Made by a program: the position numbers and the translations under genes
From: a virus
Direction: 5' to 3' (one strand)
DNA length: 32,961 nt
Virus record (IMG/VR): IMGVR_UViG_3300044620_001819
Span: 1 to 32,961 of that record
Notes under the pieces: generated by a model
What the model was told of the DNA's origin: nothing
Databases searched by the model: none
Seen by the model: the letters and a program-made list of their open reading frames with translations, nothing else
Shown: positions 3,817-32,961 of the stretch, one piece after another
Numbering within the stretch: the first letter of the stretch is position 1
Layout: every line of letters begins with the position of its first letter

Positions 3817-3893
3817 TATTAACTTCGCTGTCGCTCGTTAATGTTTTTATTTAAAGAGCGAAGCGATTAAGTATTCATGTAGATTAATCTGGT

Positions 3894-4950: not shown

Positions 4951-5003
4951 GTGTTGTATGCGATTTATCCTTGCTGTATAGTTATCTCTTTCGTTGCCTG
5001 TTT

Positions 5004-5306
5004 TTAAATTTTTCGTTTTTCTATTAACAAATCGTCAGTACACCCGGTGCAACGAGACTTTTTGCAAGTGGTTGGGCTGGTAAAAATATCCCAGTTTGTG
5101 AATATATTTCCCAGCAAATCGTTGTTGCACAGAGCTGAGTACACATTGAAATTTTTATCAACGCTTATCCGCTTGGATCCAGCAGCACAAGCCCATCCCT
5201 GCCACTGGTCCAGATTGTTGTTGTGCATCCAGTTTGCACTGATACGAAACTCTTGCCCATTGTCTAGTGTGACCTTGCAATTGTAATATTGATGATCTTC
5301 AAACAT
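5004..5306 (-). CDS. SPASM-like auxiliary cluster domain as a separate ORF
   Basis: 100 aa with Cys positions matching the C-terminal part of radical SAM/SPASM proteins: WACAAGSKRISVDKNFNVYS, then ALCNNDLLGNI, then CKKSRCTGCTDD at the end. The C-AG-x-x-I, strand, C, LGN and CxxxxCxxC order is what binds an auxiliary [4Fe-4S] cluster in full-length enzymes. The ATG overlaps the stop of the upstream radical SAM ORF (ATGTTTGA) in the +1 frame, and an in-frame TAA sits 9 bases upstream, so it cannot simply be read through. It is either a second subunit made by termination-reinitiation or the broken half of one enzyme. There is no catalytic CxxxCxxC here. Confidence 0.65.
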   Translation of the reverse strand: MFEDHQYYNCKVTLDNGQEFRISANWMHNNNLDQWQGWACAAGSKRISVDKNFNVYSALCNNDLLGNIFTNWDIFTSPTTCKKSRCTGCTDDLLIEKRKI

Positions 5307-8662: not shown

Positions 8663-8670
8663 ACTGTTTT

Positions 8671-10565: not shown

Positions 10566-10577
10566 CTATCTATTATA

Positions 10578-11474
10578 CTACTCATCAAGACTGCTTACAA
10601 CCGGTCCGGACATGGCAGCCATTGAATGTTTGCCAGAGTTCTGACGTGTCCATGAAGGGTTGAGTCCGTTCATTTCCAAAATGTCATCTCTGATGTTTTG
10701 ATTTTTCTTTTCAATGTTGAGAATTCGTGTAAAGCTGTTTGTGATCGCCGCAGTGTAGTAAGCAAATGGATTTTGACTCTTAGACTCATCGAATTGAAGA
10801 CCAATCTGCGATAGTTGAAGCAGGGCTTGTCCGCGCATTTCTTCGTTGTAGGTGTATCCACGCCAGTTGCTCCTTGTGGCATATCTTTCGCATAATTTCA
10901 TAAACATCAAGGCCAGTTTCTTGGTCATGTCCCCGTGATCCTTGGAGAACTCTCCTGTGGCCAAATCGCCCTTCCAATGCGAGCGCCCTACTATATACGG
11001 CTTCTTTTCGTCATCAATGCGATAGTGCTCAAACGGTGGAAAGTTCACACGCACATGGTTCATGTCCAGCACAGGTACATCCACAATGTCTGCAAGTGGG
11101 TCATCTTCTACCACATCATCAAGATCTAAAATTTCCTCTAACTTTCGCTTTTTGGCTTCGGCCTTGGTAATTTTCTTGGGTGCTTTGGGAATGTGATCCC
11201 AGCAAGTGATACGGAACACAATTTCGGTGTTGGGTATCTTTTTAGGATCAACAATAGTGCCCTCACGCTTGAGTCGATCCGCTCGGTTACGTCTTGCTTC
11301 GGCAATGGTACGCTGATTGATCTTGTCTATTGACGGCAAAATGATATCAAATTGATGATCGTTTACTCTGTCTTGGAACCAGCAGTAGTTGTTTTTACTG
11401 AGGTGAATTTCTTTTAAAATATCTCTGTTGTTGAGATAATTGACACGAGGTGCCGCCTTGGGTAATAAAGTCAT
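10578..11474 (-). CDS. 55: Late transcription sigma factor gp55 with N-terminal extension
   Basis: 298 aa. The C-terminal third (about residues 195-275) carries the conserved gp55 region: YNEEMRGQALLQLSQIGLQF, then SQNPFAYYTAAITNSF and LNIEKKNQNIRDD. This small sigma-like protein lets host core RNA polymerase recognise TATAAATA late promoters. T4 gp55 has 185 residues. Here about 110 extra residues precede the core, including a charged segment (KAEAKKRKLEEILDLDD). The far C-terminus VVSSLDE is a weak hydrophobic/acidic tail that could serve as the sliding-clamp contact, which is inference. AGGAGA lies about 11 bases before the ATG. Gene order 55-47-46 is that of T4-like genomes. It is the first gene of the operon under a sigma70-type promoter. 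Confidence 0.85.
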   Translation of the reverse strand: MTLLPKAAPRVNYLNNRDILKEIHLSKNNYCWFQDRVNDHQFDIILPSIDKINQRTIAEARRNRADRLKREGTIVDPKKIPNTEIVFRITCWDHIPKAPKKITKAEAKKRKLEEILDLDDVVEDDPLADIVDVPVLDMNHVRVNFPPFEHYRIDDEKKPYIVGRSHWKGDLATGEFSKDHGDMTKKLALMFMKLCERYATRSNWRGYTYNEEMRGQALLQLSQIGLQFDESKSQNPFAYYTAAITNSFTRILNIEKKNQNIRDDILEMNGLNPSWTRQNSGKHSMAAMSGPVVSSLDE

Positions 11475-14500: not shown

Positions 14501-15316
14501 CAGGCCACATTCCAGGCACGGTACAAACAAGCAGGTAACGCCAACGCTGACTGGCGAGTACGCCTGAGCCTTGCACCCAATTCACAGTATCTGTACAATC
14601 AAATAGATTCACCTGGTATTCTTGCGCCCTTGGCTGCAACGGACGGAGTAATATTCCCTTATACACCCAACATCACTACCACTTACTCGGCCCAGTACGA
14701 ACAGTACGATCTTGTTCACTCTAACTATCGTGGTTTATTTTACAAAAATTCTCGAGTGGGAGATATTCAGGTTCGTGGCACATTCACTGCTCAAGATACC
14801 AAAGAGGCTGATTACTTGTTGGCAGTGATACACTTTTTCCGTTCAGCAACCAAAATGTTCTATGGGCAAGATGTTGAACGAGGGGTACCACCGCCTGTGT
14901 GTTTGTTGAATGGTTTTGGACAGTATCAATTCTCAGATCATCCAGTGGTGATATCATCGTTTAATTACAGCTTGCCCAATGATGTTGACTACATAAGAGC
15001 AGGCAGTCCCAACAACTACGGACAGAACTTGTTGAATCGGCGTGCTGCGGTGGCCAGCAATCCTGGAGGAACTAGTCTAGCAGGATTGAACAGATTGACC
15101 AATGCCTTGCTCAAGAAAGGTGCACCTGGTCAAGGGGTTCCAGACCCCAGCGCAATCCAACAAAATGTCAGCAACACTGCCGGAGCAACATATGTGCCAA
15201 CCAAGATGGAAATAGATATTACTTTGATACCTTTACAAACACGCACCCAAGTTAGCAAACAGTTCAGCCTCAAAGGCTTTGCTAACGGACAACTACTCAA
15301 AGGAGGGTTCTGGTAA
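11588..15316 (+). CDS. Large repeat-containing tail/baseplate structural protein
   Basis: 1242 aa in clear zones. Residues 74-560 hold six copies of a 36-residue unit (DPSQFPAYD..GNL.PGFA.N..TG..YY.GF) and two copies of a 58-residue unit (DPYYGLTPTQL...). Residues about 600-735 form a Gln/Asn/Glu-rich coiled coil. Residues about 740-930 are very acidic with two further repeat families. Residues about 985-1242 are a folded domain: YTPNITTTYSAQYEQYDLVH, then AVIHFFRSATKMFYG, ending LLKGGFW. That C-terminal domain is common in phage tails near gp53. By position it might be a gp48/gp54-type tube initiator, but this is a guess. No enzymatic motif is seen. TAGGA precedes the ATG, and the stop overlaps the gp53 start by one base. 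Confidence 0.7.
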   Translation: MAGYDPNKAAEYNRLIQQGVAPEAAILQVGITFEERGNYEINSVGNTETNKSYGKMSDIAIPQNNTSGVNPASDPSQFPAYDNEGNLEPGFAINEETGGTYYRGFPSQDVGTALPISDPYYGLTPTQLKDLGGADPTDPYIRARLGIPQLPGSTLAATPGFGTIKTGVPAIDSALGIIGGGITSLFSNFSSTIGGLFGPKPTATAVASTTGMSVAGLTTPAPTPPTKDTAVNPASDPSQFPAYDDDGNLQPGFAVNDETGGAYYRGFPSQDVTNQPVNPASDPSQFPAYDDDGNLQPGFAINDETGDTYYQGFERNTDRPLSVTADPSQFPAYDDDGNLQPGFAVNDETGDTYYQGFERTFNEPLNPDEDPFEQSRYEAELAYEAQEPYDFAALPVDDPYYGLTPTQLQDLGGADPTDPYIRARLGIPQLPGSTLVATPGFGTIKTGVPIIDNALSFLGGLFGGRTATPPTPAAPPVAPTSDPSQFPAYDDDGNLQPGFAINPETGQPYYQGFERNTDQPVNPASDPSQFPAYDDDGNLQPGFAINDETGQPYYQGFPQPTTNADVDLDADSGYGSDLAYTPTDTAALSVDATKVRASNPDLSPAAQQNLDNINGANAEIVQAQGNIQTNNLSILQNEESIAGARESQRQAEAFIEQNNAELADPNITDERRAELLANNAENEAVIAENARVIDTATQNIEDAQANNAEQQGSILENQLIAEENAAAFRENDGGELLTVEPNLDPELPQEDEEVIVDTTDPADVNAEEDLELALLEDEEVIVDTTDPADVNAEDDPELGLLGDDLETVEAELAEPVDEDADPALLNEEEVDPFAPLEEPEDVDAEQDPELLGGPEDEEFTELAEPVDPDADPELLGGPDEEVDPFAPLEEPPDVDAEQDPELLGGPEDEEPDEPELLGGPEDVDTNTDDGLKTPDGQEEGGTAAETGLAEPTDADVEQANQEAAVRDRARQQATFQARYKQAGNANADWRVRLSLAPNSQYLYNQIDSPGILAPLAATDGVIFPYTPNITTTYSAQYEQYDLVHSNYRGLFYKNSRVGDIQVRGTFTAQDTKEADYLLAVIHFFRSATKMFYGQDVERGVPPPVCLLNGFGQYQFSDHPVVISSFNYSLPNDVDYIRAGSPNNYGQNLLNRRAAVASNPGGTSLAGLNRLTNALLKKGAPGQGVPDPSAIQQNVSNTAGATYVPTKMEIDITLIPLQTRTQVSKQFSLKGFANGQLLKGGFW
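11807..13270 (+). repeat. Six coding repeats of about 36 residues
   Basis: Copies begin at 11807, 12293, 12431, 12563, 13031 and 13163 (residues 74, 236, 282, 326, 482, 526), all in frame. The DNA of copies 2 to 6 is nearly identical over the GACGACGATGGCAA core, with most differences at third positions. This indicates repeated duplication under protein-level selection. Spacing is irregular (132 bases for neighbouring copies). Confidence 0.9.
11939..12951 (+). repeat. Two copies of a 58-residue coding module (11939-12111 and 12779-12951)
   Basis: Both copies read DPYYGLTPTQL, then DLGGADPTDPYIRARLGIPQ, then LPGSTL.ATPGFGTIKTGVP, and end ID.AL. They are 840 bases apart and differ at few amino acids. 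The second copy follows repeat unit 4. The module is followed each time by a Gly-rich hydrophobic stretch (IIGGGITSLF, FLGGLFGG). Confidence 0.9.
13841..13968 (+). repeat. Exact 50-bp direct repeat in the acidic region
   Basis: The 50 bases at 13841-13890 recur at 13919-13968 (period 78, in frame), encoding EEVIVDTTDPADVNAE twice. Identity at every base suggests recent duplication or gene conversion. Confidence 0.9.
14069..14317 (+). repeat. Two acidic 31-residue repeats (14069-14161 and 14225-14317)
   Basis: Each unit reads EEVDPFAPLEEP.DVDAEQ, followed by DPELLGGPEDEE. They are offset by 156 bases and nearly identical in DNA. Further partial DPELLGG and PELLGGPED copies lie between and after them. 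Confidence 0.85.
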
Positions 15317-15618: not shown

Positions 15619-18600
15619 ATGGCCACTTTTGCTGAAAATGAAGTTGCACGTTTAATACTTGAAGTTGAGCGGTGGAAAAGAATAGTTGCACAACGAGAAG
15701 CAATCTTAGCCAATCCACCACCAGGCACAACCCCAGAACAACTTGCCACACAAAGAACCAATTTAGCTTTATCCCAGGCAACGCTGGCTCAATATGAAGC
15801 TGATTTACAAGCGGCACGCCAGGTTGCTGCCACTCAAAGAACACCAGAACCAGAACCTCAACCGCCTGCTACTGCCAGTCAAACAGCAGCAGATGATGCG
15901 CCCAAAGGTCCCAACGCTCCAGAACCAGCACAGGTAAGCTCCAACGGTCGTATAGTTGCCCCACCAGACACTACCGCTCCAAGCAACGCAGTAACTCCTG
16001 TAACATCTGACACAGGTGGGGACACAGGAACTGATGCTCCTGTGCGCACTACAGAACAAACTCAAGCAACCAACGGTTACGGCGGTACCAATACGGGCAA
16101 TCAAGGCATCAATATTAGAGCAGAAGACGGCACGCTGTCGAGTCTAAGAAAAAGTCCTGAATCAGGCGAGCTGTATGATGCAGCAGGTATACCTGGCGGC
16201 GTTGAACTAAAAACAGAAGCAGGCACCACAACACGCGACGATGCTGCAAACAATTCTACATCTACCAGACAAACACAAGTAAACGCTAGCGAAGCTAGCT
16301 TGGTAAAGATCTTGCCTCAACCAAACGTGCTGGATGATTACTACAGTTACTCATATCAGATATCTGTGTATCTGTGCAATGACTCACAGTACAAAAGACT
16401 GTTATTTGGCAACAATACCAAACTTGATGGCTATCAGTTGTTGTTTCAAACTGGCGGAGCACCGTTGAATCAAGACGGAGAGAGACCACAGCCGCCTGCT
16501 GGTACAACTTTGTACGAAAGCGATGGAACATCAAGCACAGTACCACCAGAAGAACGCAACTACCCCGACGGTGGCCGCAATCCGTTTTTTCAGAACGATT
16601 TCTATATAGATTCAGTAACACTAGAAAACAAATTGCCAGCGGGCGGCGCAGGCGCTGCACACTATAGCACTGATCTTAAGTTTACTTTGATAGAACCACA
16701 GGGCATGACCTTGTTGGAACGCCTGCGAGATGCTGTGCAAAATCATTCACCACAAAACGAAAACGGCAAGGTCAACTATCTTGCTGCCACCTATGTCATG
16801 GTTATTCGATTTTATGGATACGATCAAGATGGCAACATTGTGATGCCCATCAAAGGAGGGCTAACAGTAGGAAATCAGACCAGTGATACCAGAGCTGTGG
16901 TAGAAAAACTTGTGCCATTCCAGATTACAAACATAGACTGGACCATAGGTAGTAAAACTACCAGTTATGAATGGAAATGCAAACCGGTGGGACTGAACAT
17001 TGCTGGATCCACGGCTCGCGGTACTATTCCTTATGATCTTCAATTGAATGCAACCAGCGTAGAAAAACTGCTGGCAGGTCAGGCACAATATGCACCTGAA
17101 AAATCAGCACCTGCGGACAAGCCAGGTGCATCAACCACTGCCACAGCACCAACAGGAGCGTTCCGCGGACAACGATCTGACATGCCAAAAACTTCTGCGC
17201 CTGCACCACAAACTGCGGTGGCTGCTCCTAATCCTTCGCGAACGGTTGTGCAAGGACTCATGGAAGCCATGAATGATTTCCAACGAAAACTTGTGTTGGA
17301 CGGGGTCTATGAACAAGCTGACAATTATTCAATTGAATTTGTGGGACCAGGGTCTGAAAAAATATCTGGAGCCACGCTGGTACAGCCCAACGTCAAGATA
17401 GACCAATCCAAAACTCCCATGGCAAAAGGCAAAGAAGTTCCTGAAAAAGATCGTGTGGACAACTCCAGCAGAAGTTTCAGCATCACTGCTGGCCAACAGA
17501 TTTTACAAGTCATTGAATTGGTGCTACGCAACAGCAGTTACATTAGTTCACAGGCCTTGTTTACCATTGACGAAAACGGCAAACAAATTCCCACAAAAAA
17601 TCTCAACTACAATGAGCCAGTGAAATGGTACATCATCAACATGAGTGCCCAGCCGCGCAGCAACAAACTTGACGGCAAACGAAATGACTATGCCTACGAT
17701 ATCAAGTATACTATCAGTCCTTTTTTGATCAAGAATCTAGCCAGTGTATATTTCCCGGTAAACCAGTTCAGCGGAGTTCACAAAAGTTATCCCTACTGGT
17801 TCACTGGTAAAAATACAGCAGTGCTGGAGTACCAAGAAAATCTCAATGCAATTTTTAGAATGACATTGAGTGGCAGTGTAGAAGATGATGCTGCCGCAAC
17901 AAAATTGCGTGATGCACAAACTGCAAGTTTGAATGAAATCATGATGTATACCTATCAAGCTCGTAGTGTAGAATCTAGTTCAGGTGCTCGAGGCAAAAGT
18001 TTTGAACTGGGGGCCAATGCTGCAGAGTTACTGTATGATGCTTATGGATTAAAAAATGCCAAAATTAAAATTATTGGCGACCCTGCCTGGATTGCACAAG
18101 GCAGTTTTTTTCGTCCTGTGACTCAGGAAACATTTGGTGGCAAAGCCTTGACGTCTGGTTTCATGCCTGACGGATCAGTGGCGTTTGACAATCAAGAAAT
18201 CCTGTTTGAAATAGTGTGGCAGAGACCAGAAGATTATGATCTCAGTACTGGTATGGCTGATCCGTACAGTAAAACACAAAAAAAATACAACGCTCGAGTT
18301 GCTCTGCAGAGCCGAGTTTACATTGCTACCAAATGTACAAGTGAATTCAGATCAGGTAGATTTGAACAAACGCTTGAAGGCAAAGCGTATACCTTTATAA
18401 AACCAGATGGTAGCAATTCGTCTACTCCTTCTGTAGCTGCCTTGGCCACTAACGCAGCTGGCAGCGATGCTGGTAGAGATAACAACACAGCAACAGCAAA
18501 TAAAACCAATGAAACATTTGCGAGAATAGGACGGGCTGTACCCACTGATGCTGAGGCACAACAAGCAAGAGCTAATTTTGCCAAAACTGATCCCAGACGT

Positions 18601-18972
18601 CTTGACACAGGTGATGGCGGCAAGCGTGCAATGCTCGGAGCACAAGGAGCTTACAAAGAAGCAAAGTTTGCAACAAACGCTGGGGGTGCCGCTTTTGGAA
18701 ATCCAAACTTGACCAGACAAGGTATCACAGCTGGAGCAACACTACAGCCAGCTGGCCAGCCAGCACCACCCACAGACGGTGCTGGCAGTTCTGTAAGCCC
18801 AACCTCTACAGTAGCAGCACGAGTTGGCAACGGACCTCCTACATTGACTGGCAGACCAGTTACACCAGGCAGTCTTAGAGCACGGCAAATCGAAGAAACA
18901 CGTCAACGGTTAATAGATCAGGCACGTCGTACAGGCCCAGCACAACAAACGATTGCCACAGATGGAGGTTAA
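15619..18972 (+). CDS. Large baseplate hub-like structural protein
   Basis: 1117 aa. Residues 1-75 are helical/coiled coil and 76-225 a Pro/Thr/Ala/Gln-rich linker. Residues about 228-490 form a folded domain (LPQPNVLDDYYSYSYQISVY; NDFYIDSVTLENKLP; FTLIEPQGMTLLERLRDAVQ). A second Pro/Ala linker lies at about 490-545, and a second folded domain at about 545-925 (YAYDIKYTISPFLIKN; IIGDPAWIAQGSFF; DNQEILFEIVWQRPEDYDLS; FRSGRFEQTLEGKAYTF). The last 190 residues are low complexity. The GDPAW motif followed by EILFEIVWQ-type strands is what I recall from hub proteins next to gp5 in environmental T4-like phages. A gp27-like role is plausible from the position directly before gp5 but is not shown. 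Long disordered linkers are unusual for a hub. Confidence 0.6.
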   Translation: MATFAENEVARLILEVERWKRIVAQREAILANPPPGTTPEQLATQRTNLALSQATLAQYEADLQAARQVAATQRTPEPEPQPPATASQTAADDAPKGPNAPEPAQVSSNGRIVAPPDTTAPSNAVTPVTSDTGGDTGTDAPVRTTEQTQATNGYGGTNTGNQGINIRAEDGTLSSLRKSPESGELYDAAGIPGGVELKTEAGTTTRDDAANNSTSTRQTQVNASEASLVKILPQPNVLDDYYSYSYQISVYLCNDSQYKRLLFGNNTKLDGYQLLFQTGGAPLNQDGERPQPPAGTTLYESDGTSSTVPPEERNYPDGGRNPFFQNDFYIDSVTLENKLPAGGAGAAHYSTDLKFTLIEPQGMTLLERLRDAVQNHSPQNENGKVNYLAATYVMVIRFYGYDQDGNIVMPIKGGLTVGNQTSDTRAVVEKLVPFQITNIDWTIGSKTTSYEWKCKPVGLNIAGSTARGTIPYDLQLNATSVEKLLAGQAQYAPEKSAPADKPGASTTATAPTGAFRGQRSDMPKTSAPAPQTAVAAPNPSRTVVQGLMEAMNDFQRKLVLDGVYEQADNYSIEFVGPGSEKISGATLVQPNVKIDQSKTPMAKGKEVPEKDRVDNSSRSFSITAGQQILQVIELVLRNSSYISSQALFTIDENGKQIPTKNLNYNEPVKWYIINMSAQPRSNKLDGKRNDYAYDIKYTISPFLIKNLASVYFPVNQFSGVHKSYPYWFTGKNTAVLEYQENLNAIFRMTLSGSVEDDAAATKLRDAQTASLNEIMMYTYQARSVESSSGARGKSFELGANAAELLYDAYGLKNAKIKIIGDPAWIAQGSFFRPVTQETFGGKALTSGFMPDGSVAFDNQEILFEIVWQRPEDYDLSTGMADPYSKTQKKYNARVALQSRVYIATKCTSEFRSGRFEQTLEGKAYTFIKPDGSNSSTPSVAALATNAAGSDAGRDNNTATANKTNETFARIGRAVPTDAEAQQARANFAKTDPRRLDTGDGGKRAMLGAQGAYKEAKFATNAGGAAFGNPNLTRQGITAGATLQPAGQPAPPTDGAGSSVSPTSTVAARVGNGPPTLTGRPVTPGSLRARQIEETRQRLIDQARRTGPAQQTIATDGG

Positions 18973-18975
18973 TAA

Positions 18976-20502
18976 ATGGCAGAGAACGTAGATCGCAGTC
19001 GAGGTCGCCCCAGTAATTACAAACTGGATCGCGGAGGAGTACCTGCAGAATTTGGTCCATTTACTGGAGTGGTCATGAGCACAGTAGATCCCACACGGTC
19101 AGGCCGCCTGCGTGTGTATATTGATGCGTTCAGTTCAGGAGCTGACATTGGTTCTATGGAAAACGAAACTACCTGGACCACAGTGAGCTACATGCCGTCA
19201 TTCTATGGCAACACCCCACTGAGTCAAACTCAAGGAGCCACCGAAGGCCTTGGCGCCTATCCTGGCAATCCTACCAGTTACGGCATGTGGTTTACACCCC
19301 CTGATGTGGGAGTAAAAGTAATTTGCATATTTGTCAATGGTGACCGTAGTCAAGGCTTTTATATTGGTGTGGTGCCAGAACAAGGACTGGGACACATGGT
19401 GCCTGCCATTGGTTCAGTGGCAGCGTCGCAAGCAGATATACAAAATCAAAATCAAGAAACTTATTTTGCTGACGCTCCTAGATTACCAGTTACAGAAATC
19501 AATCTAAACAATGAAGGTCTTTTTAACGACCCAAGATTTTATGATCAAGCCAAGCCAGTACAAGGATACCTTGCCCAGGCCTTGCTACAACAAGGATTGA
19601 TCACAGACCTAGAACGCGGTACTATTCAAAGTTCAAGTCAACGAGAGACACCCAGCGCAGTATTTGGAATCAGCACACCGGGCATAGCAATATACCAAGG
19701 TGGTATGAATCCCAACGACATCAGAACAAAACTAAATTCAGGGGAAATCAAGCCCAGTGATGCCAAAGTAATTGGCCGCGTAGGCGGACACAGTTTGGTC
19801 ATGGACGACGGCGACTTGGATGGAAACAATGCCATGATGCGCTTGAGAACCAGCTTGGGTCACCAAATCACCATGAGTGACACAGGAAACTTTTTCTACA
19901 TTGTGCATGCCAATGGGCAAACCTGGTTGGAGTTTGGGGTAGAAGGCACAGTGGATGTGTATGCCACAAACTCAGTAAACGTGCGCACCAAAGGTGACAT
20001 CAATTTGCATGCTGACCGTGATATCAACATGTTTGCTGGTCGTTACCTAAAGATGAAAAGCAAAGAAGACATGCAGATAGAGGCAGATACGTTTTTGTCT
20101 ATGCAAGCACAGGAAGATATCACATTGTACAGTCGCAGTACTGTGGGTGTCAAAGCTGACGGAACATTGACATTGAACAGCGCATCTGGTTCTTGGGGCG
20201 CAGGGTCTGCGCTGGTGTTGCAGGCAGGAGGTATTGACCTTAACGGACCCGCAGCAGGTCGAGTCAACACCCCGCAACCTTTGACCAAAACACTACTAGA
20301 CGACACTGAATGGGACACCAGCAAAGGTTGGATTGTCAAGTCACAAGGGCTTGAAAGCACAGTGAATCGAGCACCCACACACGAGCCATATCCTTATCAC
20401 AACAAGGGCGTGGATGTTGAGATTGCATTTGAAGAAGGCAAGCCAAGCCCACCACCAGGCGCAGTACCAGTTCCAGCTGGTGTAGAAATACAGGCAAAAT
20501 AA
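18976..20502 (+). CDS. 5: gp5-like baseplate spike protein (OB-fold plus beta-helix)
   Basis: 508 aa. Residues about 20-145 are the OB-fold of gp5/VgrG-type spikes: FGPFTGVVMSTVDPTRSGRL, MWFTPPDVGVKVICIFVNGD, GFYIGVVPE. Residues about 265-325 lead into ten octapeptide repeats (326-405) of the trimeric beta-helix needle. T4 gp5 carries a lysozyme domain between these parts. Here the 120-residue linker has no recognisable lysozyme motif, so the protein should puncture rather than digest. A C-terminal Pro-rich tail (KPSPPPGAVPVPAG) follows the helix and may bind a tip protein. GGAGG (18964-18968), inside the end of the previous gene, lies 7 bases before the ATG. The neighbouring hub-like gene supports the assignment. 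Confidence 0.85.
   Translation: MAENVDRSRGRPSNYKLDRGGVPAEFGPFTGVVMSTVDPTRSGRLRVYIDAFSSGADIGSMENETTWTTVSYMPSFYGNTPLSQTQGATEGLGAYPGNPTSYGMWFTPPDVGVKVICIFVNGDRSQGFYIGVVPEQGLGHMVPAIGSVAASQADIQNQNQETYFADAPRLPVTEINLNNEGLFNDPRFYDQAKPVQGYLAQALLQQGLITDLERGTIQSSSQRETPSAVFGISTPGIAIYQGGMNPNDIRTKLNSGEIKPSDAKVIGRVGGHSLVMDDGDLDGNNAMMRLRTSLGHQITMSDTGNFFYIVHANGQTWLEFGVEGTVDVYATNSVNVRTKGDINLHADRDINMFAGRYLKMKSKEDMQIEADTFLSMQAQEDITLYSRSTVGVKADGTLTLNSASGSWGAGSALVLQAGGIDLNGPAAGRVNTPQPLTKTLLDDTEWDTSKGWIVKSQGLESTVNRAPTHEPYPYHNKGVDVEIAFEEGKPSPPPGAVPVPAGVEIQAK
19951..20190 (+). repeat. Ten in-frame octapeptide repeats of the spike beta-helix
   Basis: Residues 326-405 divide without gaps into ten octads: VDVYATNS, VNVRTKGD, INLHADRD, INMFAGRY, LKMKSKED and five more ending LTLNSASG. 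Each starts with an aliphatic residue, with another hydrophobic residue two places later. This is the pattern of the gp5 C-terminal intertwined beta-helix. Confidence 0.8.
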
Positions 20503-22510: not shown

Positions 22511-22888
22511 ATGGTACAAAGATTCATTGGATTCAATACACAGAACCAGTTTAAAAAATTCACATTAACGGATTTTGAACTGGTCAAACGCGATTTGCTG
22601 AATGCGTTTAATATTCGGCAAGGACAACTGCCTGGCCGACCAGGGTATGGCACTGTGTTATGGGATTACCTGTTTGAACCACAACTGGAAGAATTACAAA
22701 CGGCCATTGAACGAGAAGTTCAGCGAGTGGCCGGCGGCGACCCTAGACTCTACATCAGCGACATCCAGACTTTTCCCCAGAACAACGGTATTTTGATCGA
22801 GATAGAACTAACTGTGGTTCCCAGCACTGATGCAGAACGCTTGAGTATTTTCTTTGATTTGCAACAACGCAACGCCACCTATGTATAA
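22511..22888 (+). CDS. 25: Baseplate wedge protein gp25
   Basis: 125 aa, close to T4 gp25 (132 aa). It has the GPW/gp25 family layout: RDLLNAFNIRQGQLPGRPGY, then GTVLWDYLFEPQLEEL, a helix, GGDPRLYISDI, and a C-terminal strand pair ILIEIELTVVPSTDAERL. The DPR at 77-79 may stand for the EPR motif of gp25/TssE proteins. gp25 with gp6 and gp53 forms the inner wedge core and starts sheath assembly. It lacks an obvious ribosome site and directly follows a TATAAATA element. A 48-base gap with its own promoter-like element leads to gp6. Confidence 0.9.
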   Translation: MVQRFIGFNTQNQFKKFTLTDFELVKRDLLNAFNIRQGQLPGRPGYGTVLWDYLFEPQLEELQTAIEREVQRVAGGDPRLYISDIQTFPQNNGILIEIELTVVPSTDAERLSIFFDLQQRNATYV

Positions 22889-22936: not shown

Positions 22937-25900
22937 ATGGCAACAACCACAAGACAAACCGCAATATTTGGAGTTGAAGACTGGAAACAGATCTATCAAA
23001 CCTATCGCGAAGCTGACTTCCAGAGTTATGATTTTGAAACTCTGCGCAAGAGCTTTATTGATTATCTGCGTTTGTACTACCCCGAAACATTCAACGACTT
23101 TATTGAATCGTCAGAATACATTGCCTTGTTGGATGTCATGGCATTTATGGGCCAAGCATTGGCCTTTCGTTCTGATCTAAACACACGTGAAAACTACATG
23201 GACACGGCAGAGCGTCGTGACAGTGTGGTACGCTTGGCCAACTTGGTCAGTTACACCGCCAAACGCAACACAGCCGCACAAGGCTTGCTCAAAGTTTTTT
23301 CAATAACCACAACAGAAAACGTAATTGACTATCAAGGCGTTAACTTGAGCAACGTTACTGTGAACTGGGCTGATCCTACCAATCCTGATTGGCAAGAACA
23401 GTTTACTACCATTATCAATGCCAGTCTGGTCAACACTCAACGAGTTGGACGCCCAGGTAACCGCCAGACTATTCTGGGTGTGCGAACAGACGAATACGGT
23501 ATCAATTTGGTACCTGGATTTTTGCCTATTGTACCTTACACAGCCACAGTAGACGGGATAACCATGCCGTTTGAAGCCATGACATCTACATCAGTGGGTG
23601 CAGACTTTTTGTATGAGCCATCACCACGAGCTGACCGACCATTCAATGTGTTGTTCCGTAATGACCAACTGGGCTTTCAGTCAGCCAACACTGGCTACTT
23701 TTTCATGTTCAAGCAAGGCGTGCTACAGAATCAAGATTTTAACTTGGCCGAAAAAGTCAGCAATCGCACAGTAAACATCAACATTGAAGGGGTCAACAAC
23801 GAAGATCGTTGGTTGTATCAACTGGATGATGTGGGTAACATCAATCGCGAATGGGAATACACAGAAAACATTTATGCAGCAGCAGCTGAACAAATTGGTA
23901 CCACTCTGCGACCCATCTACACAGTGACGTCACGCACCAATGATCAGATCACCATGGTGTTTGGTGACGGCGTGTTTTCAGAAATTCCTGTAGGCACGTT
24001 CCGTGCTTATGTTCGTGCATCAAACGGTTTGCAATACATTATCAATCCTGAAGAAATGCAAAGTGTGACTATTCCTATCAGTTACATCAGTCGCAACGGC
24101 AATCTTGAAACCATCACATTCACTTGCGGTATCACAAGACCTGTGAGCAATAGCCAGGCACGTGAAACCATTGATCAAATCAAACAACGTGCTCCTGCAC
24201 AATACTACACTCAGAACCGCATGGTCAACGGCGAAGACTACAATCTCTTCCCGTATACACAATACAATTCAATTGTAAAAAGCAAGGCCTTGAATCGTGC
24301 ATCAATTGGTACCAGCCGTTATCTTGACCTGGTAGACAACACCGGCAAGTATTCTAGTACCAACAGTTTTGGCGCCGATGGTGGATTATGGGAAGAAAAC
24401 ATATTGCCCACTATTTTGTTTTCCTATACCAATCGAAATGAAATAGCAGATGTGATTGCCAATCAAGTACAACCCGGCTTGGCCGAAACTACTATGAAGC
24501 AGTTTTACTATGCTAATTTTCCCAGAGTTACTGAAACTAATTTGCCTACATATGGTAGCACTACCTGGGTTCCGGGTGCTACCTGGAACCAGAGTACCAC
24601 GCTGGCCAATGAAACCACAGGATACTTTAGAAATGCAGTGACATCTGCCACTTGGCCTAACGGTACTCCAATCCCAGTAGGATTTACTACCACAACCAAT
24701 TTCAAGTATGTGGCGGTGGGCAGTTTGATAAAATTTGTTCCGCCTGCTGGCTACTATTTTGACGCCAACAATAGACTCAAACCCGGCACACCAAGTCGCG
24801 CAGACGAAACACTGGAAATTTGGGCCAGCCCATTGAGCATACAAGGCACTGGATACAACAATGGCCTGGGAAATCTCAGTTCAGGCGCAGGCCCTATCAC
24901 ACTGAATAATTTTATACCAACCGGTGCCTTAGTTGATACTATTATTCCACTGTTTGTTTCAGATTTGCCATTGGCATTGGAACAGGCCATGGCTGAACAA
25001 ATTTTGCTCAATCGTAATTTTGGCATTGGCTACGACAGCAACGGCGACATCACTGGCGTGCCATATTCTTGGTACTTGATTACTAGCACTAACCTAGCTA
25101 CTGACAGCGCCTGGAGTCAGGCCAACGCAGGATCTACTACTGGAACAAATCAAGATGCATCATGGTTGATTCAGTTCGTGCTTCAAAATCAGAATTACAC
25201 AATTACCTTTCGCGGCTTGGCCTATTACTTTGGTTCGGTGCTGAGCACACGCTTTTTCTTCTATGATGGCTCGCAAATTTACGATTCACGAACTGGCACC
25301 ATTATCAAAGACTATATCAATGTGCTGGCCGTGAACACTAGACCCGACTCTACGGATCATTTGCCCGGAGATGTTATCATGACCATCACTGGACAACCTG
25401 TTGAATCAGACGGCTATGTAGACGATTTTCAAGTGCTGATTAGTTATCGTGACAGTGACAATGATGGCGTGCCTGACAATCCTGATTTTTTCAACGAAAT
25501 TGTTGCTCCGTCTGTAGACCCCACACAAAAGTACATATACCTACAAAAAACTCTGGACTTTGACAACCTACAACGTTATCTGTTGGTAGCCCAAGGTCAA
25601 GTTGTCAGTGACTATGCCACTCTAGATGACATTGAGTTGGCCAAGACTGAGTGGACTCCAGGACAAATTTTTTATGCTTATACTGAAGAAGCATTTTATC
25701 AATTGAGTGTGGGCGCCACAGGACTAAGAACTTTGATTGACGTCAGCAATGAATGGATTGCCAGAACCGGTCGTCAATCTTTGTACTTCCAGTACCGACA
25801 CAATGCACCGTTGACTACCCGTATCGATCCAGGCACTACTAATATTATTGATCTATATGTGGTTACTTTGGCCTATTATACTGCATATCAAAACTGGATT

Positions 25901-26413
25901 CAAGATACCACAGGCACTGTGATTGAACCTCAAGTGCCTAGTCTTGATGAATTGAGTACCACTTACCAAGGCCTACAGAACTACAAGATGTTGAGCGATA
26001 ATATTATTTTGAACAGTGTTGTATTCAAGCCTTTGTTTGGACAAAAGGCCGCACAAGAACTACGTGCCACTATCAAGGTAATCAGAGCCAGCGGCTCAAC
26101 TGCTAGCACAAGTGAAATTAAAAGTGCTGTGGTTGCCGCGATGAATACATACTTCAGCATTGATAAATGGAACTTTGGCGACACTTTTTACTTCTCAGAA
26201 CTTGCAGCCTACTTACATAGTGAACTAGGTTCAATCATCAGTTCGGTGGTGTTGGTGCCGTTGAACTCACAAAAATATTTTGGCGACTTGTATGAAATAC
26301 GGTCTGAACCAAATGAGATATTTGCTAATGGTGCTACTATTAATAACATTGAAGTAATTGAAGCATTGACCAGTACCAACTTGCGTACTGCCCCCGGTAG
26401 TGGAGTAATTTAA
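22937..26413 (+). CDS. 6: Baseplate wedge protein gp6 (enlarged)
   Basis: 1158 aa against 660 in T4. The N-terminus is typical of gp6: LRKSFIDYLRLYYPETFNDF, ALLDVMAFMGQALAFRSDLN, TRENYMDTAERRDSVVRLAN. The middle has the baseplate J-like core (FGDGVFSEIPVGTFRAYVRA; MVNGEDYNLFPY). The C-terminal wedge domain is also recognisable (VFKPLFGQKAAQELRATIKV; FYFSELAAYLHSE). The extra length lies between about residues 500 and 1000 and includes a calcium-loop-like DSDNDGVPDNPD at 839-850. gp6 forms the ring that holds the wedges and dimerises between them. It is separated from gp25 by 48 bases with a late-type promoter, and its stop overlaps the next ATG by one base. Confidence 0.9.
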   Translation: MATTTRQTAIFGVEDWKQIYQTYREADFQSYDFETLRKSFIDYLRLYYPETFNDFIESSEYIALLDVMAFMGQALAFRSDLNTRENYMDTAERRDSVVRLANLVSYTAKRNTAAQGLLKVFSITTTENVIDYQGVNLSNVTVNWADPTNPDWQEQFTTIINASLVNTQRVGRPGNRQTILGVRTDEYGINLVPGFLPIVPYTATVDGITMPFEAMTSTSVGADFLYEPSPRADRPFNVLFRNDQLGFQSANTGYFFMFKQGVLQNQDFNLAEKVSNRTVNINIEGVNNEDRWLYQLDDVGNINREWEYTENIYAAAAEQIGTTLRPIYTVTSRTNDQITMVFGDGVFSEIPVGTFRAYVRASNGLQYIINPEEMQSVTIPISYISRNGNLETITFTCGITRPVSNSQARETIDQIKQRAPAQYYTQNRMVNGEDYNLFPYTQYNSIVKSKALNRASIGTSRYLDLVDNTGKYSSTNSFGADGGLWEENILPTILFSYTNRNEIADVIANQVQPGLAETTMKQFYYANFPRVTETNLPTYGSTTWVPGATWNQSTTLANETTGYFRNAVTSATWPNGTPIPVGFTTTTNFKYVAVGSLIKFVPPAGYYFDANNRLKPGTPSRADETLEIWASPLSIQGTGYNNGLGNLSSGAGPITLNNFIPTGALVDTIIPLFVSDLPLALEQAMAEQILLNRNFGIGYDSNGDITGVPYSWYLITSTNLATDSAWSQANAGSTTGTNQDASWLIQFVLQNQNYTITFRGLAYYFGSVLSTRFFFYDGSQIYDSRTGTIIKDYINVLAVNTRPDSTDHLPGDVIMTITGQPVESDGYVDDFQVLISYRDSDNDGVPDNPDFFNEIVAPSVDPTQKYIYLQKTLDFDNLQRYLLVAQGQVVSDYATLDDIELAKTEWTPGQIFYAYTEEAFYQLSVGATGLRTLIDVSNEWIARTGRQSLYFQYRHNAPLTTRIDPGTTNIIDLYVVTLAYYTAYQNWIQDTTGTVIEPQVPSLDELSTTYQGLQNYKMLSDNIILNSVVFKPLFGQKAAQELRATIKVIRASGSTASTSEIKSAVVAAMNTYFSIDKWNFGDTFYFSELAAYLHSELGSIISSVVLVPLNSQKYFGDLYEIRSEPNEIFANGATINNIEVIEALTSTNLRTAPGSGVI

Positions 26414-29400
26414 TGGCAACAGTTCGTAGTGTAGATTTTCTTCCTGAAATTTTTCAGACTGATGCTAACAAACAATTTCTAAGAGCCACCTTGGATCAAC
26501 TGATCCAAGAGCCTAACTTTAGAAAAACACAAGGTTTCATTGGCCGCTCAGTGGGCCCAGGTGTTGACCCCAACGACAAGTATGTGATTGAACCCACAGC
26601 AACCAGGGCCAACTATCAATTAGAGCCAGGTGTGGTAAGCCTCATACCCGAAACCAGTCAGATTCGAGATGCAATCACTTATCCAGGACTGAACGACGCC
26701 ATTGGATTTCAAGGCGGCAATGCCGGCCGCCCAGATCGGCTGTACTCAAGCGAATATTACACATGGGATCCATTTGTAGATTTTGATGCGTTTGTAAATT
26801 TCTCACAGTATTTTTGGGTACCCGGCGGGCCTGACACTGTGGATGTGGCTGCAACTGGTGTAGCCACAACAGACAATTTTACAGTGACTCGAGCCAATGG
26901 AGTTTATACTTTTTCTGGTGTCAACGGTGAAAACCCTATTATTGAACTGGTACGTGGCGGCAACTACACTTTCCAAGTGGCCCAGAACAGCACAGAAACT
27001 GTTAACTACCGAGTAAGAAATTCAGGAACATCAGCCTATGTAATTGATTTCCAAAACAACCCCAGCCTAACATTGGCTCGCGGCAACACCTATGTGTTTA
27101 ATTTGACACTGGATGGACTGTTCCCGTTTTGGATCAAGACGCAACCAACCACTGGTACTGGAGAAATATACACTCAAGGTGTCAGCCGTAATGGTGCTGC
27201 GACTGGCTTGGTAACATTCACAGTACCTCAAGATGCGCCCAACACCTTGTACTATGCCGCACAAAATCAAGCTGGCATGCAAGGCACATTGAATATTGTA
27301 GACGGCACACCGGGCACAGGACCAGGTTTTTGGATTCAGACAACTCCAGGAGTGTCAGGTAATGTGACTGCCACGCCTAACATATCCAGTAGAGATGTAC
27401 TGGGTGTGACCAACAACGGCGAAGATTTAGGTACTGTGGTTTTTAATGTACCAGCCAAAGACGCACAGAGTTTTTACTATAACTTGACCAGCATTGGCAC
27501 AGTTGATTTGGTAACAGACATGCAGTTTGCACAAATTAACAATCAGCCAGTGAGCCAATTTATCAGTCAATACAATGGCATTGACGGTATCACAAATCTT
27601 GATGGACGTACTTTGGTTTTTACCAACCCCATTGAAGATGTTCAAGATGGCGGTTGGTATCGTACCAGTTTCTTTGACCCACTCATAGACGATGCATCCA
27701 ACGTGGGTGTGGCTGGCAGTTATGATAGTGTGCCTTATGATTATACTATTGATATCTTGCCTAATCAACGCTATCAAAAGTATCAAATCAGCTACGTGAA
27801 TATTGCAGGTATTGTGTACCTACAAGTAAACAAGATCGCTGATATTGCATCGCTAGAAAAATTTACTATTGGGTATGGACAAACTTATAGCAACACTCAG
27901 TGGTACAAAGATGCCACTGGCGAGTTCAAACAGATTCCTTTGTTGTCAGCAGCACAAGATACTCTGTATTACCAAGATGGAACAGATCCAGAAATCTTTG
28001 GACGTATCAAGTTAATAGAGCAGACACAAACCAATGTTATCTATGTGGATGAAATCTTAGGACGCAAAACTTATACCAGTCCCAACGGTGTAACGTTTAG
28101 TAATGGATTGAGAGTTCGTTTTACCGGTGATGTGTCGCCAGCTAGTTATGGATCTGGTTCAGCTGCGTTTGGATACACAGCAACTGAAGCTGGCACAAAC
28201 TATATTACCTACAACGATTCTACTGACTTATATGTGGGGCAACAGGTGGTATTCTCCGCACCATCCTTGGGAGGACTCAATGCAGGCCAGACCTATTATG
28301 TGAGGTCAATTGCAGCCAACGGCCTCAAATTCACAGTAAGTGCCTCTGACGGTGGTCCTGTTGTGTCGTTGACAAACGGCACAGGAATTGGCACGGCCAC
28401 AGCAATCAGCAGTAGAGAATACTACGTGAGTGGAGTAGGCACTGCAATTGAACTGTTACCTGCCGTGAATTATGTTGTACCTGAACTGTATGTAGAAGAT
28501 GCAGATGACAGTACAATATCTACAGAACCAAACCAACCAGATTATTTGACTATTGATCGTGCCAGCAAAGATTTAAATGCATGGACTAGAAGTAATCGTT
28601 GGTTCCACATTGATGTTATCAATGCCACGGCTGCATACAATAACACCACTGCGGTGCTGGACAACAACTACCGAGCCAAGCGGCCTATCGTACAGTTTAG
28701 ACCTGGCATGCGTCTGTGGAACATGGGCACTGAAGGCAAAGCACCGGTTGACATCATTGACTTTGAAGCAACAGATGCGTTTTCCAACATTGAAGGAACT
28801 ACCAGTTACAGCACCAATGGCTATACCTTTGTAGAAGGCACACGAGTTATTTTTGCAGCAGACGAAGATACTTCTGTACGCAACAGAATCTATATTGTGA
28901 GCTTTGTCACACCAGACACCATTCCTCCTCTGATAGCACAACCTATTATTACTCTCACCCAGGCTCCTGACGGGCTGGTACTACTAGACCAATCCACAGT
29001 TTGCATCAGCGGTAACACCACCGCTGGAAAAACGTTTTGGTACGACGGAATCGAATGGGCAGAAGCCCAACAAAAAACTTCAGTACAACAAGCCCCGTTG
29101 TTTAATATCTACAATCCTGACGGTGTGAGTTTTGGAGATGGCACAGTATATCAGTCTACTACATTTGCAGGATCAAAGTTGTTTAGTTACGCAGCGAGCG
29201 ACACAACTATTCTGGATCCAGTTTTGCAGTTTCCTCTCAAGTACTTGAACATCAACAACGTTGGTGACATTGTGTTTGACAACAACTTGTATGTTGACAC
29301 ATTCTTGTATGTGGTTGACAACGTAAGTATTACATCGGACATTAGTTCTGGATCTGTTAGAGAATATTCTACTAGAACTGATTATCAGAAGTTGATAGGG

Positions 29401-32400
29401 TGGCAAAAGGCCGCAGTGGATCAACAGCTTTATCAGCAGTTTAAGTTTTCATACACAGGTGCTACACTCAAACTAGATGTGTCGGCATTGACTCAAACAT
29501 CTATTGCGGTGCCAGTAATCAAGATATATGTGGGCAGCATTTTTATAGATCCCAGCAAATATACCTATACCACCACTGCTGACAGCACTGTTATAACTTT
29601 ACTCGATACCTATGCTTTAACAGATATTATAGAAGTGCTGGTGCTGAGCGATCAGACTAGTAAGGTTGCATTTTATCAAGTGCCAGACAACTTGCAAAGC
29701 AACCCATTGAACTCAAACTCACAAGAGTTTACATTGGGAACAATCCGTACTCATTATCAAAGCATCTGTGAAAATCTGCAGACTCTCCGAGGTCCTGTAA
29801 ACGGTGCCAACAACACTCGAGATCTTGGCAACATAATTCCTTACGGTTTGGTTATCTTACAACAAAGTAGTCCACTGACTCTAGCTGGCTACTTCATGCG
29901 CAGTACTGATTATAATGTTTTTGCGTCCATGCAATACAACAGTCGCGAATATATCAAATTCAAAGCACAAATGTTGGATTCAGTACTGACACAAAATATT
30001 GGATTTGAAACCACCGCACAAGTACTTGACACCGCTATACAAAATGTAACATTAGGCAAATTAGATACCCAACCATTTTATTGGAGTGACATGATACCTG
30101 CTGGTATCACCTATGCCAGCACTACCTACACTGTGAGTTTTATCACAACCAATGTGTTTGACACTGTGCAGGTGTATAATTTTACCTCTCAAAATTATCT
30201 TGGTCTTTTGGTATATCTCAATGGCGAACAGTTGATTCGAGATGTTGACTACACCGTGGCCACAGACGGCCCACGAATCACTATATTAACTCCTCTGACA
30301 ATAGGCGATGTGCTGTTGGTCAATGAATACAACGCCACTTATGGCAATTTTGTACCCAACACACCTACTAAACTGGGATTGTACCCTTCTTGGAAGCCAG
30401 GGCTGGTTACACAGGTCACCAGTAACGGCAACGCACAATTTATATTAGGGCATGACGGCAGTACCACTCCTGTGTTTGGTGACATCCGTGATGATGTGTT
30501 GATAGAGTTTGAAACACGCATCTACAATAACCTCAAGCTGGATGGCAATCCTGTGCCACTTACTATTGACGATGTGCTACCAGGCCAGTTCCGTGACACT
30601 GGATACACATTTGAAGAAATCAACACCATTTTCAGCAGTGACTTCTTGGCCTACTGCGGATGGAACAAACTGGACTATAATACTCAAAATTATTTGACCA
30701 ACAACGAATTTACCTACAACTACAGTAGCAGTAATAACCGTCTTGATAACCAACCGCTGTTGGGTGCCTGGCGCGGAATTTATCGCTATTTCTACGACAC
30801 AGAACAACCCAGCTTCACACCATGGCAAATGTTGGGATTGACCAAAGAACCTGACTGGTGGCAAGATCGTTATGGCCCAGCTCCGTATACTTCTGACAAC
30901 TTGGTGCTATGGGACGACCTAGAAGCTGGCCTAGTAGCGGATCCTATTGCACCTTACACTGTGCCAAAATATGCACGACCGGGGTTGACCTCAGTAATTC
31001 CTACCGACAGCGAAGGCAAATTGTTAAGCCCTCTCAATTCGGTGGTGGGTGTTACTCCGTTGAACAACAGTCTCAACAGTAAATTTGCCAAGAGCTGGGC
31101 GCTAGGCGATGGCGGACCAGTAGAAGCATCTTGGTATAACAGTTCATCATACCCATTCTCTGTCATGCATGTGCTGGCAGTCACCCGTCCTGCTAAGTTT
31201 TTTGCTTTGTTTGCTGACCGTGACAGATATCGATACAATCTGGACTATGATCAATATCTACTGGATGATCGTTATCGGTTGGATGCCAACGGAGTTGAAG
31301 TCTACGGCAATGGCACAAGCAAGGCCAGTTATATCAACTGGATTGTGGATTACAATCGTCAGACTGGTATCAATTCAACTGGCCTGTTGACCGCAGATCT
31401 ACAGAACCTGGACGTGCGATTGTGCTATCGTATGGCATCATTCTCTGACAAACAATACATCAAATTGTTTACAGAAAAATCCAGCCCCAATTCAACTAAC
31501 ACTGCTTTGATGATCCCAGATCAGAGCTACGACATTTTGTTGTACAAGAATCAGCCGTTTGATCAAGTAAGATACAGTAGTGTGGCTGTGCAAAAAGTTG
31601 CCAACGGCTATGCTGTTTTTGGATTTGGTAATCAACAGCCTTATTTTAACATATTGCAAAGTCAGGCAGTGGGACGACTTGCGACCTATAGTTCGGGTGG
31701 CATCACTGTGCGTATTCCCACTTTCTATACCAACACTGTGGTACAAGTTCCATACGGATTTGTATTCAATAACGAAACTGCTGTGTGTGATTTCTTGGCC
31801 AGTTACGGTGAACTGCTGAGTACACAGGGTCTGTCATTTACCAACATTGCCAATGGTTATGTGTTGGATTGGCCACGCATGATTAATGAATTCTTGTACT
31901 GGAGCCAACAGGGTTGGAGTACAGATGCAATTATAAATCTAAACCCATTGGCTGCTAAACTAGAAATTTCTAGACCTCTAGCCGTGGTTGACAGTATCAA
32001 TACTGAAACTACAGAAAACTTGTTGTTGAATCAAAATTCACAAGAGATCCCACCACGAGCACTCAACATAGTAAGACTGGGCAATAATTTCAGTATTGAA
32101 CCGTTGAACCTAGACGCTATCAGTTATATTGACATGAGATTCACCAACTACGAACACATGATTGTGTTGAACAATCAAAGTGTGTTTGGAGACCTAATCT
32201 ATGATCCCACAACAGGCGCACGACAAAGTAGATTGAGCATGGTAGCCATGACCACAGCTGATTGGAACGGATCAGTTGACGCCCCAGGATTTATACTGAA
32301 TCAAAACAACGTTGAAGAGTGGACTGGCTTGCGAACCTACAGCAAAGGCGAGATTGTCAAATACAAAAATGTATATTGGTCAGCACTGACCATTGTGCAG

Positions 32401-32961
32401 CCCACCGACAAGTTTGATTTCAACGTGTGGACTCAAAGTGATTACACTCAGATTGAATTGGGGCTGTTGCCAAACCTAGCCAACAAAGCTGATCAACTGG
32501 CCAACAGTTACAACATCAACGCAGCAAACATTGAATCAGACAATGATTTATTGGCGTATGGCTTGATAGGATTCAAGCCGAGACAATACATGGCAGCATT
32601 GAATCTTGATGATGTCAGTCAAGTAAACGTGTACAGACAATTCTTGGATACCAAAGGTACATTACTGGCCACAGAGTTATTTAGACAAGCCAACCTTGGT
32701 AAAGAATCTGCCGACTATAATATATATGAAAATTGGGCAGTACAACGAGCAGTGTATGGTGCCAACGCCAATCGCAGTTACTTTGAACTGCGACTTGACC
32801 GCGCCTTGCTCAGTAGCAATCCCAGCCTGATTCAAGTCATACAGCCACAACAGGTCAGCGAAGCTGACCAAACCATCTTCCTCAGTGACGTGTGGCGACA
32901 AAGTTTTGCATTGACATCAACTGACATTTTGCCAGTGACCACAGAATTACCAACAGACCTA
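26413..32961 (+). CDS. Giant baseplate/tail structural protein in gp7 position, 3' end outside window
   Basis: Open for 2183 codons without a stop from an ATG overlapping the gp6 stop (TAATG). It starts MATVRSVDFLPEIFQTDANK, then TLDQLIQEPNFRKTQGFIGR and YSSEYYTWDPFVDFDAF. This N-terminus is familiar from large structural proteins after gp6 in marine T4-like phages. T4 has gp7 (1032 aa) here, so this may be a much enlarged wedge initiator, but homology is not shown. Residues about 210-300 look like a cupredoxin-type beta-sandwich with metal ligands lost. A second weaker copy follows at about 302-372. Residues about 595-665 resemble a beta-repeat of tail-fibre proteins (YVGQQVVFSAPSLGGLNAGQ). 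The rest is beta-rich with many Tyr, Asn and Thr and no enzyme motif. Confidence 0.7.
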   Translation, partial: MATVRSVDFLPEIFQTDANKQFLRATLDQLIQEPNFRKTQGFIGRSVGPGVDPNDKYVIEPTATRANYQLEPGVVSLIPETSQIRDAITYPGLNDAIGFQGGNAGRPDRLYSSEYYTWDPFVDFDAFVNFSQYFWVPGGPDTVDVAATGVATTDNFTVTRANGVYTFSGVNGENPIIELVRGGNYTFQVAQNSTETVNYRVRNSGTSAYVIDFQNNPSLTLARGNTYVFNLTLDGLFPFWIKTQPTTGTGEIYTQGVSRNGAATGLVTFTVPQDAPNTLYYAAQNQAGMQGTLNIVDGTPGTGPGFWIQTTPGVSGNVTATPNISSRDVLGVTNNGEDLGTVVFNVPAKDAQSFYYNLTSIGTVDLVTDMQFAQINNQPVSQFISQYNGIDGITNLDGRTLVFTNPIEDVQDGGWYRTSFFDPLIDDASNVGVAGSYDSVPYDYTIDILPNQRYQKYQISYVNIAGIVYLQVNKIADIASLEKFTIGYGQTYSNTQWYKDATGEFKQIPLLSAAQDTLYYQDGTDPEIFGRIKLIEQTQTNVIYVDEILGRKTYTSPNGVTFSNGLRVRFTGDVSPASYGSGSAAFGYTATEAGTNYITYNDSTDLYVGQQVVFSAPSLGGLNAGQTYYVRSIAANGLKFTVSASDGGPVVSLTNGTGIGTATAISSREYYVSGVGTAIELLPAVNYVVPELYVEDADDSTISTEPNQPDYLTIDRASKDLNAWTRSNRWFHIDVINATAAYNNTTAVLDNNYRAKRPIVQFRPGMRLWNMGTEGKAPVDIIDFEATDAFSNIEGTTSYSTNGYTFVEGTRVIFAADEDTSVRNRIYIVSFVTPDTIPPLIAQPIITLTQAPDGLVLLDQSTVCISGNTTAGKTFWYDGIEWAEAQQKTSVQQAPLFNIYNPDGVSFGDGTVYQSTTFAGSKLFSYAASDTTILDPVLQFPLKYLNINNVGDIVFDNNLYVDTFLYVVDNVSITSDISSGSVREYSTRTDYQKLIGWQKAAVDQQLYQQFKFSYTGATLKLDVSALTQTSIAVPVIKIYVGSIFIDPSKYTYTTTADSTVITLLDTYALTDIIEVLVLSDQTSKVAFYQVPDNLQSNPLNSNSQEFTLGTIRTHYQSICENLQTLRGPVNGANNTRDLGNIIPYGLVILQQSSPLTLAGYFMRSTDYNVFASMQYNSREYIKFKAQMLDSVLTQNIGFETTAQVLDTAIQNVTLGKLDTQPFYWSDMIPAGITYASTTYTVSFITTNVFDTVQVYNFTSQNYLGLLVYLNGEQLIRDVDYTVATDGPRITILTPLTIGDVLLVNEYNATYGNFVPNTPTKLGLYPSWKPGLVTQVTSNGNAQFILGHDGSTTPVFGDIRDDVLIEFETRIYNNLKLDGNPVPLTIDDVLPGQFRDTGYTFEEINTIFSSDFLAYCGWNKLDYNTQNYLTNNEFTYNYSSSNNRLDNQPLLGAWRGIYRYFYDTEQPSFTPWQMLGLTKEPDWWQDRYGPAPYTSDNLVLWDDLEAGLVADPIAPYTVPKYARPGLTSVIPTDSEGKLLSPLNSVVGVTPLNNSLNSKFAKSWALGDGGPVEASWYNSSSYPFSVMHVLAVTRPAKFFALFADRDRYRYNLDYDQYLLDDRYRLDANGVEVYGNGTSKASYINWIVDYNRQTGINSTGLLTADLQNLDVRLCYRMASFSDKQYIKLFTEKSSPNSTNTALMIPDQSYDILLYKNQPFDQVRYSSVAVQKVANGYAVFGFGNQQPYFNILQSQAVGRLATYSSGGITVRIPTFYTNTVVQVPYGFVFNNETAVCDFLASYGELLSTQGLSFTNIANGYVLDWPRMINEFLYWSQQGWSTDAIINLNPLAAKLEISRPLAVVDSINTETTENLLLNQNSQEIPPRALNIVRLGNNFSIEPLNLDAISYIDMRFTNYEHMIVLNNQSVFGDLIYDPTTGARQSRLSMVAMTTADWNGSVDAPGFILNQNNVEEWTGLRTYSKGEIVKYKNVYWSALTIVQPTDKFDFNVWTQSDYTQIELGLLPNLANKADQLANSYNINAANIESDNDLLAYGLIGFKPRQYMAALNLDDVSQVNVYRQFLDTKGTLLATELFRQANLGKESADYNIYENWAVQRAVYGANANRSYFELRLDRALLSSNPSLIQVIQPQQVSEADQTIFLSDVWRQSFALTSTDILPVTTELPTDL

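Follow-up and report, generated by a model that had tools for sequence, protein, structure and literature searches.

A predicted cupredoxin-fold domain without copper ligands, nested in a homologous domain of a putative giant phage baseplate protein

The closest described relatives of the domain discussed here occur in cyanophages, at the C-terminus of the baseplate wedge tail-fibre connector and in tail-fibre-like kin (S-SSM4, P-TIM68, and PSSM2_028 of P-SSM2; phrog_677). They belong to the same family at 33 to 51% identity; they are uninterrupted and the nine that were read keep a CxxHxxM motif, whereas in the window (the whole stretch of DNA analysed, a virus record of 32,961 bases) the His, Cys and His are lost and the domain is nested in a giant wedge-type protein. 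In its predicted fold the window domain resembles rusticyanin and the N-terminal cupredoxin domain of the three-domain copper nitrite reductase (VIA Z 11 over 90 to 96 residues), but it is only ca. 20% identical to them and has neither copper ligands nor enzyme partner domains. The protein that carries it compares with the giant virion proteins of PA5oct, Atu_ph07, Phosso and SCTP-2, whose N-terminal 139 aa are alike (29 to 37% identity) and whose genes, in the first three phages, also follow a gp6-like gene. The first 460 aa of all four gave no match to the hidden Markov model (HMM) of the ligand-bearing family, nor did the whole PA5oct record.

The giant protein and its gene neighbourhood

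The giant open reading frame (26413..32961, + strand) stays open for 2183 aa and its 3' end lies beyond the window. It matches phrog_10938 (E 1.2e-211) and, judged by gene order after a gp6 homologue, would encode a T4 gp7-like baseplate wedge protein, of which aa 1-139 (26413..26829, +) form the conserved N-terminal domain common to the four phages named above. Directly upstream lies the baseplate wedge gp6-like gene (22937..26413, +; phrog_10646, E 1.5e-277; 34% identity over 99% to Atu_ph07), and farther upstream are genes for a small baseplate wedge subunit (22511..22888; phrog_43) and for a hub/tail-lysozyme-like protein (18976..20502), so that wedge- and hub-type genes next door give the protein a baseplate setting. 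The giant frames of related virus contigs run to 4176-5195 aa in 14 of the 15 with a match, and to 1698 aa in one (G013). For the PA5oct homologue the annotation records detection by ESI-MS/MS. Since the relatives sit on contigs of up to 349 kb, the source phage, an uncultured one, is probably a jumbo myophage.

Elsewhere in the window, two large virion-like ORFs on the + strand (11588-15316, 1242 aa, and 15619-18972, 1117 aa) have partial PHROG matches only. The region 4522-11474 on the opposite strand, which adjoins a late sigma factor gene, contains three radical-SAM ORFs (5299-5925, 7682-8716 and 8671-9552) interleaved with SbcC-like and SbcD-like genes; the latter two ORFs, each with a match to phrog_21308, are possible tandem paralogues.

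The inner domain and the loss of its copper ligands

The inner domain (aa 196-298; 26998..27306, +) is inserted in the outer domain beside the first ligand position. All motifs quoted in the preliminary description of this DNA are present in the giant frame: LTLARGNTYVFNL (aa 219-231), PFWIKT (238-243), FTVPQDAPNTLYY (269-281) and AAQNQAGM (282-289), and, in the part that it took for a second copy, FWIQTTPG (306-313) and FNVPAKDAQSFYY (344-356). Searches of Pfam and PDB sequences with the window protein alone returned nothing useful (best PDB match IsdA, E 0.03), and PF13473 (Cupredoxin_1) did not match the window. With the inner-domain profile (A3) alone, PDB sequences yielded no cupredoxin and Pfam no match to Copper-bind; the commonest Pfam match of the inner-domain members was the At5g54830-like domain (28 of 38, best E 5e-4).

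An AlphaFold2 model (A1) of aa 140-384, from a 68-row alignment, reached a mean pLDDT of 80.2 and a pTM of 0.53. Its pLDDT blocks are 88-96 over model residues 61-160 and 72 just before them, and confidence is low in the outer C-terminal half. When the model was compared with the PDB by Foldseek, rusticyanin came first (E 8.3e-5), and among the 50 matches listed were rusticyanin, copper nitrite reductase, laccases and other multicopper oxidases, auracyanin, ceruloplasmin and factor VIII; all 50 we take to be cupredoxin folds. VIA aligned 96 residues with rusticyanin (2cal; Z 11.3, rmsd 2.1) and 90 with 2dv6 (Z 11.2, rmsd 1.7), and among its 50 matches listed the part covered was model residues ca. 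54-159, that is, aa 193-298. The stretch aa 194-298 is thus predicted to be a Greek-key cupredoxin sandwich, as had been proposed from the sequence, and no other fold was seen. In a library of predicted viral structures the matches to the model include a P-SSM2 tail fibre, the S-H34 and S-RIM14 connectors, and an uncharacterised P-SSM5 protein. The same library holds 'Beta-sandwich proteins' from Pithovirus and Marseillevirus contigs that match the model (E 2.5e-7 to 3.3e-5), and giant viruses may therefore carry stand-alone versions of the fold.

A tblastn search of named phages with window aa 1-486 found domains at 33-51% identity over about aa 198-297 (best E 4e-17), mostly from cyanophages and located in tail-fibre and baseplate-connector proteins, which is more than a chance resemblance. 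The nine such domains that were fetched are free of selection for ligands, since the query was the ligand-less window; all nine have CxxHxxM and eight have HPF, the His being displaced in the remaining one (L010). A larger tblastn set gave a complete His/Cys/His/Met set (HCHM) in 100 of 101, a count that overstates the purity of the family, because most of the set was collected with P-SSM2 as the query and two of the six peptides used in that search include ligand residues. Among 41 nonredundant members the Cys, the second His and the Met are invariant and the first His is present in at least 90%; a typical homologue reads YYxCQxHxxM and GHPF(W/Y)IKT. The profile of this ligand-bearing family matches a copper nitrite reductase in the PDB (9cck, E 1.9e-4), followed by auracyanin, azurin and plastocyanin (E 0.07-1). 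In Pfam its members most often match the At5g54830-like domain (22 of 41, best E 1.7e-6) and in 13 of 41 cases Copper-bind (best E 0.001), with several unrelated families at similar E values. The inner-domain profile aligns with it at 100% in hhalign (E 4.2e-47, 46% identity), the family HMM matches the window at E 5.5e-37, and positions 260-410 of the 412 of phrog_677 match window aa 141-297 at E 3e-19. These sequence profiles place the inner domain in the phrog_677 C-terminal domain family; its location differs, in that it lies not at the end of a connector or fibre but in the giant protein after the gp6-like gene.

The residues at the ligand positions are exactly those that the preliminary description had singled out as replacements: F237 for the first His (27121..27123, +), A283 for the Cys (27259..27261, +) and Q286 for the second His (27268..27270, +), whereas the axial Met is kept as M289 (27277..27279, +). 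The window thus reads F/A/Q/M in place of a type-1 (blue) copper ligand set. We counted these positions in an HMM alignment of 72 inserted giant proteins from which duplicates had been removed. None has a complete HCHM set. The first His is absent from all (Phe in 43, Tyr in 26, Ser in 2, Leu in 1), as is the second, which is Gln in 66 of 72; the Cys is kept in 10 and the Met in 63. Evidently, by comparison with its ligand-bearing kin, the inner domain has lost both His and in most lineages the Cys too, and has kept the fold and mostly the Met. The order of ligand loss is something we infer.

Nesting of the inner domain and history of the insert

The HMM built from the 41 ligand-family domains gives exactly three matches in the window at E <= 0.01: a full one (model 1-100; 27004-27303), the N-terminal half of an outer cupredoxin-like domain (aa 156-193, model 2-39; 26878..26991, +; E 4e-5), and its C-terminal half (aa 303-357, model 39-85; 27319..27483, +; E 6e-7). 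What the preliminary description called a weaker second copy is indeed a homologous match, but it is the C-terminal half of a split domain rather than a tandem repeat. The domain that it delimited is likewise real, with aa 196-298 as its well-defined part, but the outer N-terminal half (aa ~156-193) begins upstream of 26944, where it had been drawn to start.

The same arrangement is general among the relatives. Classed by linker, 124 deduplicated proteins comprise 72 inserted and 52 uninserted ones. With the same HMM all 72 inserted proteins give the order N-half, full domain, C-half; the N-half ends at model position 39 in 58, 38 in 10 and 40 in 4, whilst in 69 proteins the C-half begins at 37-42 and in the remaining 3 at 54-57. 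The first ligand His is model position 40, so the split adjoins the first ligand position. The 52 uninserted proteins give a single match each (50 full, 2 slightly shorter). At contig level the three-part order was found in six of seven inserted contigs, G001 having no N-half match at the cut-off, and a single match in all seven uninserted ones. Every match in the seven inserted contigs falls in the giant frame, though the contigs may be fragments and a ligand-bearing copy may lie elsewhere. A short-linker relative (L113), of the kind found through the N-terminal domain, reads straight from the outer N-half to the C-half, SYTFQVTDEFWIQ, where the window has NYTFQVAQN, the inner domain, and then GTGPGFWIQ. 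Scanning with the outer domain brought in many more uninserted relatives, often with a linker like VNQPGxxFWIQ.

The outer domain aligns in hhalign with the ligand-bearing family at 98.7% (E 2.5e-16) and with the inner domain at 97.8% (E 8.7e-13, 35% identity); the inner domain is therefore closer to the external ligand-bearing family than to its own host domain. That the outer domain is cupredoxin-like is suggested by this profile comparison, with only 16 similar rows, rather than by structure: modelled alone from L113 (pLDDT 74.5, pTM 0.56), it had no Foldseek match under E 1e-3, the top one being the SO1698 aspartic peptidase (E 0.28-1) with cupredoxins weaker, and copper proteins scored Z 5.4 or less in VIA, below that tool's clear level. 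In another phage contig (G015) the giant frame is 4442 aa long and has just one outer-type domain, uninterrupted, with E/S/S/T at the ligand positions. Another uninserted giant protein (L317) has a His at ligand position 1 of its outer domain; it gives one further HMM match, too weak for the i-E 0.01 cut-off, that has N/D/N/I at these positions. Taken together, the sequence comparisons place the inner domain within a second, homologous and apparently also copper-less domain.

The history of the insert was traced on trees of 419-421 columns from which the domain had been removed. The 252 loci found with the N-terminal domain were reduced to 129 proteins by discarding those under 600 aa and duplicates, and redundancy removal left 96 for the first tree (51 inserted, 29 long-linker, 11 short-linker and 5 outgroup); because the outgroup branches were very long, the tree was repeated without them (91 rows). 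The relative scans used different queries and kept 80 loci each of 150, 472 and 523 relatives, so that the counts do not tell how common inserted or uninserted proteins are. Short-linker proteins, and L150 and L154, fall among inserted ones. The inserted state requires 7 changes on the tree with outgroups and 6 on the one without them (bootstraps, 5-7; shuffled labels, about 30), and well-supported branches force at least 4. A single clade of all inserted rows is rejected (lnL difference 409, p-AU 1.07e-55), and the insert must therefore have come or gone more than once. Also rejected is a single clade made up of L150 and the 11 short-linker rows (p-AU 1.6e-6), a grouping picked after the first tree. 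L150 reads AQNSTTGTSPQFWIQ, in which both edges of the insert can be recognised, as an in-frame deletion would leave them; apparently the insert is absent in some lineages by clean deletion and is dispensable enough for that. One inserted protein, L126, falls among the short-linker rows, which could mean either that the insert was regained by recombination or that it was lost several times; recombination might also look like repeated loss. Because the other family members read are uninterrupted, the uninterrupted state would be ancestral and the insertion derived, with gain and loss both possible at the deepest branches.

A probable structural role and the copper motif of the cyanophage relatives

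The explanation that we favour, and hold to be probable as a whole, is that of a nested, copper-less cupredoxin serving as a structural or docking module. A giant gp7-like wedge protein would have carried an outer cupredoxin-like domain directly after its conserved N-terminal domain; an inner domain, kin of the copper-ligand-bearing domains of tail-fibre and connector proteins, would have been inserted beside the first ligand position, and would then have lost its His ligands and mostly its Cys while retaining the fold and mostly the Met. It most likely acts now as a rigid docking or adhesion module of the baseplate that contacts either the cell surface or an adjacent protein of the wedge or of a fibre. 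A structural or docking role is the most likely one, and a copper, redox or electron-transfer role of the window protein is very unlikely. The earlier suggestion, that a redox fold has been put to structural or binding use, is still the best reading, supported by the predicted fold and the ligand loss and presumptive in function.

The most serious competitor, which we nevertheless think unlikely, is a carbohydrate- or receptor-binding module that has a part in host range and passes between phages as a cassette. The kin domains in tail-fibre and connector proteins and the repeated coming or going of the insert agree with it, but the inner domain sits in a wedge-type protein and not at a fibre tip, and it does not change fast: against the window its dN/dS is 0.015-0.091 in six pairs (computed for six of nine close relatives; dS >1 in one pair), within the range of the flanks (0.012-0.140). 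Among these close relatives the substitution ratios show the inner domain to be under purifying selection. Less credible still, and in our view improbable, is that the inner domain binds a metal or small ligand at the old site through Met289, Gln286 and new residues; the near-constancy of that Met and Gln, and the Cys left in a few proteins, would fit, but neither position has a His in any of the 72, the first is Phe or Tyr in 69, and the conservation of Met can reflect packing. A tandem duplication with the 'halves' as weak repeat fragments and no true nesting, conceivable only in that outer and inner domains are homologous, we reject as highly improbable because uninterrupted homologues exist, the halves being contiguous in 52 of the 124 proteins, the N-half ending at model 38-40 in all inserted ones, and the inner domain lying nearer to the external family than to the outer domain.

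With the nested, structural reading retained, the window protein would illustrate how a redox fold became a component of the virion, some relatives being only partly decayed (those 10 of 72 that keep the Cys), and how a domain came to lie inside its own homologue; the natural absences of the insert mean that it is not always needed. The most interesting lead, though, is the conserved four-ligand copper motif of the cyanophage tail proteins, of which no description was found in the open PMC literature, the scope of that search; passages of PMC8115048 concern a viral nirK gene and not the domain discussed here. A copper or redox function in these relatives is plausible. Apart from its giant frame, the G015 contig encodes a fibre-like protein of 1063 aa in which all four HCHM residues are present, and fibre-like proteins with the complete His/Cys/His/Met motif at 816-4007 (-) of L345 and 2578-4257 of L001 are possible type-1 copper centres on phage virions. 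Tentatively, and aware that the balance is against it, we propose that virions of cyanophages and other marine myophages bear a genuine, conserved type-1 copper centre on their tail-fibre and connector proteins, and that in the jumbo lineage of the window nested insertion brought in such a domain, which was then made into a copper-less structural cassette. If this is true, the type-1 copper centre would be a part of the infection machinery that responds to redox state or to copper.
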